From contig JAQSXR010000008.1 in NCBI GenBank assembly GCA_029256575.1, forward strand, positions 1-64,000: a stretch of 64,000 nt of DNA. Direction: 5' to 3'. This stretch comes from Clostridiales bacterium (lineage in GTDB: Bacteria; Bacillota; Clostridia; Lachnospirales; JAQSXR01). The notes beneath the pieces are model-generated. The model was not told the origin of the DNA and did no database searches. It saw nothing but the letters and a program-made list of their open reading frames with translations. Shown here piece after piece: positions 1 to 63,430 of the stretch. The position numbers and the translations under genes are program-made. Numbering within the stretch: the stretch's first letter is position 1; each line of letters opens with the position of its first letter.

Positions 1-108
1 CACGAACAATTTTGAAGATTGTGGAGGCAAGAGAAAAACATGCAAATCTATCTCAAGCCAGCGATGAATTCACCCCCTCCTTTAGGGCACTAACAATCAT
101 TAACCTTA
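1..108. repeat. Right half of a palindromic hairpin element, cut by window edge (copy 1)
   Basis: Bases 21-43 and their flanks match the right arm of the complete element at 13691-13928. Shared landmarks in order are CACGAACAA, GTGGAGGCAAGAGAAAAACATG, AAAT(A)CTATCTCAAG, GCGA.GAATT and a C-run followed by TAGGG. The left arm would lie before base 1. The 11 bases between CACGAACAA and GTGGAGG differ completely from the other copy. I read it as a non-autonomous MITE-like or structured-RNA element. The assignment of the two copies to one family is firm, its nature is not. Confidence 0.75.
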
Positions 109-13606: not shown

Positions 13607-13690
13607 ACTAAGTCTTCTCTCCCTGTTCATACAACCACATTTAATTATCTTTTCTCTTTTTATCTTTTCCCTTTTCTCCATAACCCAAAT

Positions 13691-13928
13691 GTTTTGTCAG
13701 GTCCCCTTATACAAAGTCTACGGTATTCTTCACAAGCTTGAGATAAGTATTTACAAAATGTTTTTCCTTTGAATACATAAACTTAGGTTTTTGTCCGTGA
13801 ATAGCAGATGTTCTTTATCTGATAGTCACGAACAAAAACCTAAGTTTGTGGAGGCAAGAGAAAAACATGTAAATACTATCTCAAGATTGCGAAGAATTAA
13901 CCCCCCCTAATAGGGGACCTGTCAAAAC
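13691..13928. repeat. Complete ~238-bp palindromic hairpin element (copy 2)
   Basis: The two arms are complementary along almost the whole length. Outer ends are GTTTTGTCAGGTCCCCT and AGGGGACCTGTCAAAAC. A central 22-bp stem (13779-13800 with 13825-13846) has one G-T mismatch and a 24-base loop. The 3' arm shares the sequence seen at bases 1-108. It ends at 13928, directly beside the stop codon of the gene at 13929. I see no open frame in it. It is best described as MITE-like or as a structured RNA, and it fills the gap between argF and the next gene. Confidence 0.85.
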
Positions 13929-14996
13929 TCACTCTTTTTGCTGTTCAGCAATCCCTAAATTATGAAGTCGCGTCTTTGAATTAAGTGCGTCCTTTCGTTT
14001 TGACAATAATGTATTTACAAGTAGGAGTAATCCTCCAAATAAAATAATTGCGTAATAGTTTACCATTCTCCACATTATCATTGCATAGATAATAACTTCT
14101 TTTGAAAAAAAGGATGCAAAAATACTATAAAACCCTAGTTCTGATGCTCCCGCCCCGCCTGGAGTAGGTATAAAGCTTACTACTGCATAAAGTATAGTTT
14201 GCAAAGCAAATATCTTCATAAATGGAGCATCCCTATATCCAAAACTTAAATATATAAAGTAAGTAACGGAGAAAAACATAATAAGTTGAAGGATAGTAAT
14301 TAGTGTTTGTCTAATCATTAACGCTTTCATTTTTTTGAGTGCGTTCATTACATCTGAATAGTCATTTATCATATCATAGATCTTATCTTTATTAATTTTA
14401 TGAAATATTTTAAATTTAGTTAAATAGTTAAGAATTGGTCTAATTACTTTAATTAGTAATTTACCATTATACAAAGCCATCATAAATATTATTGTGCCAA
14501 CAAAATTACATATAATCCCAATTATTACTAGAATCAATAGATTAGTATCCGTATTCTTGAAAAAAGGAAGTTGATAAAAAAACATTAAAATTACCAAAGC
14601 AGTTACTGAAACTTGATATACGATACATTTTTTAAGCGTGACAGAAGTTCCTACAGATACAGGAATCCCATACTGTTTTTTCATCACATATATTTGACCT
14701 GGTTGTCCACCTGTTGCAAAAGGTGTTATTAGGCTATAATACATACCTACAACTCCTAAGAAGAAGGCTTGTACATAATTAATGCGATATCCTGTTGATT
14801 TGACTAAATCTTTTATCTGTAATCCACCCGCTACTAAATATAGAAATATTAGTCCTGAAGCAACCCAGAAATATTTCATATCCATCTGCTTCACTAAATT
14901 AGGTATTTGCTTTACATCTCCATTCACTACTAATACATAAATTGTTAAGCCAATAAAAAAAAGTAATATAGCTAAGTTAAATAACTTCTTTTTCAT
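13929..14996 (-). CDS. UPF0104 / lysylphosphatidylglycerol-synthase-TM family membrane protein
   Basis: A 355-residue polytopic protein with about eight membrane segments. It has the family feel of the flippase domain found in MprF and its stand-alone relatives, including a FATGGQPGQIYVMKK loop near residue 95 and FIPTPGGAGASELGFYSIF near residue 275. No catalytic aminoacyl-transfer domain follows, so it is a membrane flippase-like unit only. It is last in the six-gene envelope locus. I infer a role in moving a lipid intermediate or glycolipid anchor, comparable to LtaA. The stop codon touches the hairpin element. Confidence 0.88.
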   Translation of the reverse strand: MKKKLFNLAILLFFIGLTIYVLVVNGDVKQIPNLVKQMDMKYFWVASGLIFLYLVAGGLQIKDLVKSTGYRINYVQAFFLGVVGMYYSLITPFATGGQPGQIYVMKKQYGIPVSVGTSVTLKKCIVYQVSVTALVILMFFYQLPFFKNTDTNLLILVIIGIICNFVGTIIFMMALYNGKLLIKVIRPILNYLTKFKIFHKINKDKIYDMINDYSDVMNALKKMKALMIRQTLITILQLIMFFSVTYFIYLSFGYRDAPFMKIFALQTILYAVVSFIPTPGGAGASELGFYSIFASFFSKEVIIYAMIMWRMVNYYAIILFGGLLLLVNTLLSKRKDALNSKTRLHNLGIAEQQKE

Positions 14997-35233: not shown

Positions 35234-35304
35234 ACTATCAGGGTGATCCTTTCATTCTTATACCTTTTATTATATGGTTTGTATGTCAAAAGTATTTAGT
35301 TTTT

Positions 35305-36246
35305 CTATTCAATAATTAATTTAGCTGCGCCAATCATACCTGCGTCATTTCCTAACGTTGCTAATGAAAAGCCGGTATTTTTTAATGCATGAAAAGCATT
35401 TTCTCTAAAATGTTTTCGTATAACATCTAGTAGAATATTGCCTGCCTTTGAAACACCTCCACCAATTACAAATGTTTCTGGATTTGTAGTCGCAGCAATA
35501 TAAGAACATGCAAGCCCAAGATATTCACCTAATTGTTCAACCATATCAATCGCAATCTTATCGCCTTCTTTAGCTTCATCAAATATATTCTTTGCTGAAA
35601 TATTATCTATTTTTCTTAGAGATGATGGTGTATCAACTCTGCTTAAGTATTTGTTTGTTTCTCTAACGATTCCGGTTGCTGAAGCGAGTGTTTCCAAACA
35701 TCCTTTTTTACCACATCCACATTTCTCAGCATCTGGTCCTATTTTCATTGTGAAGTGTCCAAGTTCTCCTGCAGCTCCGTTAATTCCACCGAGTACTTTA
35801 CCCCCAACGATAACGCCTCCGCCTACACCGGTACCTAATGTTAACATTACTACGTCTTGACGTCCAGTTGCACCACCTTGCCACATTTCTCCAAGCGCAG
35901 CTACATTTGCATCATTTCCAGCTTTTACTTTTAATCCTGTTATTTTGCTTAATTCATCTGCAACATTAAATTCTCCCCAGCCCAGATTAACGCAACCAAG
36001 AACATTTCCCGCATCATCAACTGGACCTGGTACGCCAAGGCCAATTCCTATTACATCATCTTTTGATAAGTTTTTTTCTTGTAAAATTAAAGTAACTTTA
36101 TTTGCAATATCAGATAAGATATTTTTCCCATTCTCTGATTTATCTGTATGAATCTCCCATTTTCCTTGAAGATCACCATCTTTCGTAACTAATCCAATCT
36201 TTATTGTTGTCCCACCAATGTCAATTCCTAAACAGATTTTTCCCAT
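35305..36246 (-). CDS. ROK-family glucokinase
   Basis: The 313-residue cytosolic kinase starts GIDIGGTTIKIGLV (phosphate loop). It has the ROK zinc motif CGCGKKGCLETLAS near residue 175 and AGNDANVAALGE for the sugar site. It phosphorylates glucose to glucose-6-phosphate, here probably released by the GH13 enzymes in this window. The gene follows hprK by 12 bp, tying glucose entry to catabolite control. ROK repressors share the fold, but no helix-turn-helix domain precedes it, so kinase is the better reading. Confidence 0.93.
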   Translation of the reverse strand: MGKICLGIDIGGTTIKIGLVTKDGDLQGKWEIHTDKSENGKNILSDIANKVTLILQEKNLSKDDVIGIGLGVPGPVDDAGNVLGCVNLGWGEFNVADELSKITGLKVKAGNDANVAALGEMWQGGATGRQDVVMLTLGTGVGGGVIVGGKVLGGINGAAGELGHFTMKIGPDAEKCGCGKKGCLETLASATGIVRETNKYLSRVDTPSSLRKIDNISAKNIFDEAKEGDKIAIDMVEQLGEYLGLACSYIAATTNPETFVIGGGVSKAGNILLDVIRKHFRENAFHALKNTGFSLATLGNDAGMIGAAKLIIE

Positions 36247-37363: not shown

Positions 37364-37419
37364 CTATATTTATTCAATTATTATTGATTATAGTGTCTAA
37401 AGTAAGTTTTACATAATCA

Positions 37420-45091: not shown

Positions 45092-45844
45092 ATGAAAATA
45101 ATATTAACTGGAATGACGGGCACACTTGCCCCATATGTACAAAAAGCATTACTTCAAAAAGGATATGAAGTAGTTTCATGGAATCGGGCTGATTTGTCTA
45201 CAGAGGACCAAGAAGCTATCAATCAATTTATTGAAAAAGAAAAACCTGATTACTTTTTTCACTTAGCAACCGGACCACAATCATGGATTGAGAAAATAAT
45301 TCTTGCTTTAAAACCAACTCAAATCCCTTTTCTCTTTACTTCAACAGAATCTGTTTTTGATAATACACAAGAAGGACCTTTTACCACTGATATAGAACCA
45401 AAATCCACAAGCGATTATGGTAGCTATAAAATATCATGTGAAAATCTGATTAAAGAGCAGTATCCGGAACATTCCTATATTGTTCGTTTAGGATGGCAAA
45501 TCGGATTGTTACCAGAAAAGAACAACATGCTAACTTACCTTGTAAAAGAAGATATTTTACATGCTTCAGATGAGTGGATACCTTCAACTTCATTTATGCC
45601 CGATACTGCTAACGGTCTTATACAAATTATTGAATCTCTTCAACCTGGAACATACCATTTAGATGGTAACGAAGATAATTGGAGCTTTTACCAAATTGCA
45701 TCAGCTCTTAAAGAGGCGTTTAATCTACCAATAGAAGTATTGAAAGATAATAATTTTAATCATAATAATCGCCTACTTAATGATCCTATTCTTACACAAT
45801 CAATACAAAAAACAATCGAGCAGATAAGATCTAGGATTCAATAA
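45092..45844 (+). CDS. RmlD-like NAD(P)-dependent sugar-nucleotide reductase homologue
   Basis: A 250-residue extended short-chain dehydrogenase. The N-terminal coenzyme loop is ILTGMTGTLAPYV, with the catalytic YxxxK in DYGSYKISCE near residue 113 and VRLGWQIG. The family includes dTDP-4-dehydrorhamnose reductase RmlD; no other rhamnose genes are nearby, so the substrate is open. It is one of few plus-strand genes here. AAGGAGAT precedes the ATG. Its stop codon lies in the first unit of the 14-bp tandem array. Confidence 0.85.
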   Translation: MKIILTGMTGTLAPYVQKALLQKGYEVVSWNRADLSTEDQEAINQFIEKEKPDYFFHLATGPQSWIEKIILALKPTQIPFLFTSTESVFDNTQEGPFTTDIEPKSTSDYGSYKISCENLIKEQYPEHSYIVRLGWQIGLLPEKNNMLTYLVKEDILHASDEWIPSTSFMPDTANGLIQIIESLQPGTYHLDGNEDNWSFYQIASALKEAFNLPIEVLKDNNFNHNNRLLNDPILTQSIQKTIEQIRSRIQ

Positions 45845-46010
45845 AGTAGATGCAGTAAAATAGAGACAATAAAATAGAGACAATAAAATAGATACAATAA
45901 AATAGATACAATAAAGTAGATTCAATAAAGTAGATACAATAAAGTAGATACAATAAAGTAGATTCAATAAAGAAGATTCAATAAAATAGATACAATAAAA
46001 TAAAGATTTA
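45843..46010. repeat. 14-bp tandem minisatellite, eleven units plus a degenerate one
   Basis: Eleven uninterrupted units with consensus AAARTAGAWWCAAT run from 45843 to 45996, followed by one decayed unit. The first unit starts inside the stop codon of the gene at 45092. Units vary by one or two bases, so the array has diverged after amplification. No coding frame is evident. Confidence 0.95.
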
Positions 46011-56190: not shown

Positions 56191-56420
56191 GTGAAAATTT
56201 GATGGGGGGTGGTGGAATAGCACCCTATATGTATATTGATTTTTGGGTGCCTTACCTTCAAGTGGCATATTTCTTACAAGCCTCTGTACATGTGAAAATA
56301 CTCACTATGTTCGTTTTTCACAGAGTCTTGACGAAATATTGGCGCCACTTTCAGACGGTCACGCCAAAAATTAATATACATATAGGGTGCTATTACATTT
56401 TGGTGTTGACAAATTTTCAC
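56191..56420. repeat. ~230-bp hairpin element, distinct from the GTGGAGGCAAGAG family
   Basis: Outer arms GTGAAAATTTG and CAAATTTTCAC pair. The inner 31-base arms 56216-56246 and 56364-56394 are complementary except for one G-T pair. Further arms pair ATATTTC..ACAAG.CTCTGT with its partner near 56316-56338, leaving a small apex at about 56299-56312. No protein is supported, so this 565-bp gene-free stretch (56063-56627) holds this element and the uvrB promoter; I see nothing else. Confidence 0.85.
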
Positions 56421-63296: not shown

Positions 63297-63329
63297 AGCA
63301 ACGGACAAACAAAAACAACCGTCCCTAAC

Positions 63330-63430
63330 GTATCACGCGATACATTGGGGACGGTTCTTATTGTATCACTTTGATACATTGGGGACGGTTCTTATTGTAT
63401 CATTATGATACAATGGGGACGGTCCTTATT
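63330..63430. repeat. Three ~34-bp tandem repeats with GGGGACGGTT core
   Basis: Units at 63330-63362, 63363-63396 and 63397-63430 share GTATCA, a 3-4-base loop, TGATAC, then AT.GGGGACGGT.CTTATT. Each begins with its own small hairpin. A partial inverted core AACCGTCCC lies just before. The array ends on the first base of the S41 stop codon. GGGGACGG repeats of this kind are widespread in Clostridia, often near Y1 transposases, but none is visible here. Confidence 0.85.

Follow-up and report, generated by a model that had tools for sequence, protein, structure and literature searches.

The question raised by this locus is how a long hairpin can keep its two arms complementary while part of its stem differs from one copy to the next. 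In the window (the whole stretch of 64,000 nucleotides that was analysed), positions 13691-13928 fold end to end as a single hairpin of 238 bp on either strand, as the initial annotation had proposed. The predicted energies are -110.4 kcal/mol on the forward strand (z -16.2) and -114.1 kcal/mol on the reverse strand (z -14.9), and no shuffled sequence folded as well in either case. The right half does recur at the beginning of the window, where base 1 is also base 1 of contig C62, so that only half of this second copy is present. The two copies differ between CACGAACAA and GTGGAGGCAAGAG just as had been described, and in the complete copy the differing segment pairs with the opposite arm, although one T.G pair makes the complementarity slightly less than the perfect match originally claimed. 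The flanks, which had been called well conserved, differ from copy to copy outside the hairpin.

Table 1. Positions of the reference element, its parts and related features in the window
Feature	Positions	Strand	Remarks
Complete family A copy, 238 bp hairpin	13691-13928	- (strand of upstream gene)	
Base stem, left arm, GTTTTGTCAGGTCCCCT	13691-13707		pairs with 13912-13928
Base stem, right arm	13912-13928		pairs with 13691-13707
Outer stem, left arm	13725-13745		differs among copies
Outer stem, right arm	13877-13897		
Invariant module, left arm, ATGTTTTTC C TTTG AATAC	13758-13776		paired positions constant in 14 copies
Invariant module, right arm, GGAGG CAAG A GAAAAACAT	13850-13868		
Variable core stem, left arm, ATAAACTTAGGTTTTTGT	13777-13794		pairs with 13832-13849
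Variable core stem, right arm, ACAAAAACCTAAGTTTGT	13832-13849		
Apical hairpin, CCGTGAATAGCAGAT-loop-ATCTGATAGTCACGA	13795-13831		conserved for the most part
Short tandem repeat, 15 bp x 2.1	13645-13675		adjoins the 13691-13928 element
Upstream gene, LPG_synthase_TM membrane protein	13929-14996	-	stop codon abuts the 13691-13928 element
Second family A copy, right half	1-108	-	cut by contig end; behind glmM (179-1528, -)
Family D element	56213-56397		hairpin unrelated in sequence to A

A search of the window's own 3.1-Mb genome uncovered approximately 18 copies of this element, hereafter family A, if degraded examples are counted. This number is probably an underestimate, because several copies lie near contig ends (the copy at 1-108, L008, L009 and the distant L057, as well as L171 of family B, described below). 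Two loci, L056 and L057, are distant relatives with altered modules. Family A appears to be restricted to its species, and its members appear to be long non-coding quasi-palindromic repeats. Elsewhere in the order, a covariance model of the family gave 0 matches across 195 genomes, and Rfam returned nothing above its gathering score for the elements, only sub-threshold models that were mostly microRNA hairpins. The exact core pattern is absent from the named GTDB genomes and IMG/VR, and no similar DNA was found in plasmid and phage collections, with the caveat that such collection scans may omit near records. Our comparisons rest on one genome, the sole representative of its genus and family among those searched. 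Its LysRS is about 76% identical to those of its nearest named relatives, Candidatus Epulonipiscium, Defluviitalea and Vallitalea, which would put this bacterium within Lachnospirales or close to it, as a poorly known relative of the Lachnospiraceae.

The element has a layout in which variable stems alternate with invariant modules. The 13 paired positions of the module ATGTTTTTC-C-TTTG-AATAC / GGAGG-CAAG-A-GAAAAACAT show no variation in 14 copies, and its AATAC/GGAGG portion forms an asymmetric internal loop. Mean identity between copies is 0.90 in conserved columns vs 0.48 in core columns, and no core stem is common to any two copies even though their modules average 0.90 identity. The variable core noted from the first two copies does vary and stay paired across the family, but three stems vary in all (inner, outer and base), of which the core is one. 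The ends GTTTTGTC/GACAAAAC are clear in four copies and variable elsewhere, and the element as a whole is an inverted repeat. Three copies (L015, L018 and L019) have decayed, which shows that loss is tolerated. The constancy of the modules together with the near-saturation of the stems fits either long function in place or long-lived active lineages.

The alignment of genome copies suggested by the initial annotation shows the covariation for which it proposed to test: in 14 aligned copies, pairing and covariation exceed those of all 500 shuffles and of all slid controls. Both-sided pair changes occupy 63 cells of the alignment vs 15 in shuffles, and most of the 63 fall in the inner stem beside the invariant module, where one-sided changes are almost absent. 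This stem comprises 142 Watson-Crick, 2 G.T, 5 A.C and 2 other pairs, and its double changes are of the transition type in 17 cases and of the transversion type in 26. Transversion-rich double changes are found in family A and also in families B and D. The copies are related, so that shuffle and pairwise counts are not independent and our p values serve as guides. Covarying pairs beyond chance are likewise predicted by arm copying in DNA, and so they are not specific to RNA. Moreover, the arms within a copy mismatch by only 4-6%, whereas stem identity between copies is 0.45 for the A core, 0.69 for B and 0.56 for D; arms are more alike within a copy than stems are between copies, the relationship called for by template switching.

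The remaining mismatches need more careful interpretation. Most are A.C as the element is drawn, which corresponds to G.U on the gene strand, and such a bias resembles tolerance of G.U pairs in RNA. Counts made by hand, including those of the outer stem, gave 17 mismatches of the G.U type, 3 of the A.C type and 14 transversions in the variable stems. Tandem arrays that adjoin the elements served as the neutral control on the same strand, albeit with an imperfect polarity of the array consensus, and their substitutions (C>T 16/236, A>G 43/1168, G>A 9/502, T>C 3/517 and 61 transversions) translate into 59 G.U-type and 12 A.C-type changes besides the 61 transversions. The two spectra do not differ (chi-square p 0.85), and strand-biased mutation thus explains the arm mismatches. 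We therefore abandoned the G.U bias on the gene strand as proof of a transcribed RNA; relative to this control, and with the outer stem counted by hand, G-U on the transcribed strand does not exceed the neutral expectation. An excess of G+T in the 5′ arm, which template switching is predicted to leave, was inconsistent between stems.

Family A does not stand by itself in this genome. Family B, with approximately seven copies (L164-L169 and L171), forms a hairpin of about 260 bp with the same design, and its outer stem is variable yet near-perfect; three copies have 39 of 39 bp perfect. Family D, with approximately nine copies that include the one in the window (Table 1) and L067, repeats the architecture of A. 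By inspection, neither B nor D has any sequence in common with A. Three matches to the family B pattern in IMG/VR do not form the element hairpin and were judged to be chance. A hairpin scan of sampled stretches, covering about 464 kb of the genome, found 7 hairpins scoring at least 70 if REP clusters are counted; relatives yielded 6 in 1.19 Mb, three of which were runs of N and were discarded.

Of the 24 copies of A and B, 15 have a tandem array next to them, compared with 3 of 33 control intergenic regions (350 bp or longer), and the array unit differs at each locus. The short repeat beside the reference element lies on the side occupied by the long arrays at other copies. Because the units at L004, L005 and L006 include parts of the element's own arms, the arrays are not all independent of the element, and segments of the arms are tandemly duplicated at these three loci and at L009. 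A fourth family, C (L176-L184), looks like an ordinary short hairpin repeat of the MITE type, 122-135 bp long, with several copies 95-98% identical; fragments of it occur at 35283-35311 and 37380-37419 of the window. Most family C copies have no adjacent array, and thus a hairpin alone seems insufficient to produce arrays, unless these near-identical copies are too young. Separately, a 14-bp unit is repeated 12 times at 45835-46002, right after the end of an open reading frame, and no hairpin of these families adjoins it.

Given these results, we put at about even the chances that family A belongs to a set of three or more unrelated families of the same design, whose arms stay complementary through a process in DNA, template switching. 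A replication fork would stall at the hairpin and the nascent strand would copy the opposite arm, such that each stem would then drift as one unit. Slippage at the same stalled forks could generate the neighbouring arrays and the duplicated arm shells. The modules would be held by selection as recognition sites of a putative factor, acting either while a non-autonomous element moves or at its resident site behind genes. Template switching has been described as creating and maintaining hairpin stems (PMC8794818) and is a candidate for the concerted evolution of palindrome arms in Nematomorpha mitochondria (PMC6649704), and both systems resemble ours in their co-changing arms and in perfect stems that lack G-U intermediates. 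The present case differs in consisting of dispersed bacterial repeats with invariant modules between drifting stems. The switching event is inferred here from copies within a single genome, and the authors of PMC8794818 themselves term their strongest evidence for a role in short-stem maintenance circumstantial.

The initial annotation had set RNA selection beside gene conversion within the palindrome. As a means of keeping the pairs, the second is favoured by the mismatch spectrum, the near-absence of one-sided G-U pairs and the transversion-rich double changes. In family B, whose stems are still unsaturated (0.69), transversion-rich double changes would be hard to reach via G-U intermediates. 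However, free copying of arms should erase asymmetric internal loops as well, and strong selection on the loops must be added. Some form of selection on sequence is thus also required to explain the invariant asymmetric modules, and this may leave room for a functional RNA or single-stranded DNA.

A structured non-coding RNA or 3′UTR element, cotranscribed with the upstream gene, with modules that bind a protein or ligand and stems that drift by compensatory change, deserves consideration even though we hold it to be rather doubtful. Invariant internal-loop modules joined by helices that change freely are what a structured RNA usually displays, and 27 of 33 A, B and D copies immediately follow a gene in the same orientation (A 16/18, B 6/7 and D 5/8; p 0.0003). 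Those of the genes that could be named from Pfam are largely housekeeping. The leading strand carries most genes in such bacteria, and therefore orientation to the gene and orientation to replication are inseparable for these elements. A GA/GA loop in B and D resembles a kink-turn by eye, but it lies on the strand opposite to the gene. Nor do the elements have promoter flanks that are conserved, and an intrinsic terminator precedes several of them (L002, L006, L014 and L017). Along with the scarcity of one-sided G-U pairs in the variable stem, the neutral mismatch spectrum, the Rfam outcome and the damaged copies, these observations argue against the RNA reading.

An ordinary non-autonomous mobile element, either a MITE or a single-stranded element like IS200/IS605, whose stem diversity reflects old lineages with slow turnover, is in our estimation unlikely. 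Its attractions are that the elements are dispersed, multi-copy and species-restricted, that decayed and apparently nested copies exist, that orientation is fixed relative to genes and hence probably to replication, and that the same genome carries family C. MITEs, including one in Porphyromonas that holds a minisatellite (PMC4596501), are likewise small non-coding repeats with inverted ends, and minisatellites lie near our elements. However, unshared core stems despite 0.90 module identity are unlike a recent MITE burst. As to the two signs by which the initial annotation would have recognized a MITE, target-site duplications were not seen by eye at the four copies with clear ends (L001, L007, L012 and L014; the other ends are unclear), and a genome-wide search of the Y1 and RT families found no transposase with the same ends, only one Y1 transposase of the REP type and one group II intron RT. 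Group IIC introns insert behind terminators, and a link to them was rejected as resemblance only, the sole group II RT locus having no landmark of the element. At that locus (L062, G000:C34) a terminator-like hairpin is followed by a single group II intron, whose RT/maturase of 470 aa is the only RT found in the genome.

Other bacterial repeats offer partial parallels. REP/BIME sequences and palindromes associated with RAYTs are also palindromic and extragenic, but REPs measure 20-40 bp (PMC3733652) compared with 238 bp here, and the single REP-type transposase was not seen linked to our elements. This genome does have a clustered REP-like family, GGGGACGGTTCTTATTGTATCA (window 63309-63430; L081, L082, L077 and L074), to which its one REP-associated tyrosine transposase (L063) is assumed to be tied. 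The pneumococcal repeats BOX, RUP and SPRITE are intergenic, folded, multi-copy and modular, and BOX, which has a variable tandem array (boxB) in its interior, can extend operons at the 3′ end (PMC3049150). As described, they are set apart from our families, whose arrays are external to the hairpin and have a different unit at every locus. Stem-loop sequence families of bacterial genomes are repeated families able to fold (PMC2267715); the word ‘compensatory’ is absent from that report, and covariation of arms between copies was not found described there.

It is very improbable that every insertion rewrites or selects the stems for a barcode- or guide-like function: L002, L005, L009 and L017 do have similar outer right arms and dissimilar cores, and core and outer stem similarity is uncorrelated (r 0.07), but we rejected guides or target-derived sequence because cores match their own flanks or the sampled genome no better than chance, and several remain TCTTGGG-like, as drift from one ancestor would leave.

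On the sequence evidence as a whole, we favour arm copying in DNA over RNA selection as the process that keeps the pairs. Covariation is routinely held to prove that an RNA structure is under selection. In this genome, approximately 34 dispersed copies in three families combine strong covariation with mismatches of a neutral spectrum and a near-absence of one-sided intermediates, and an excess of G-U on one strand needs a mutational control. With neutral arrays next to many of its copies, this multi-copy set from a bacterium makes the maintenance of stems by template switching testable. We tentatively raise a further possibility, improbable as it may be, that the three or more unrelated families constitute a new class of hairpins that function in place behind housekeeping genes, as RNA or as extruded single-stranded DNA, with invariant binding modules and stems that drift through arm copying. 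Family A offers a favourable natural system in which to study how hairpins keep their pairing.
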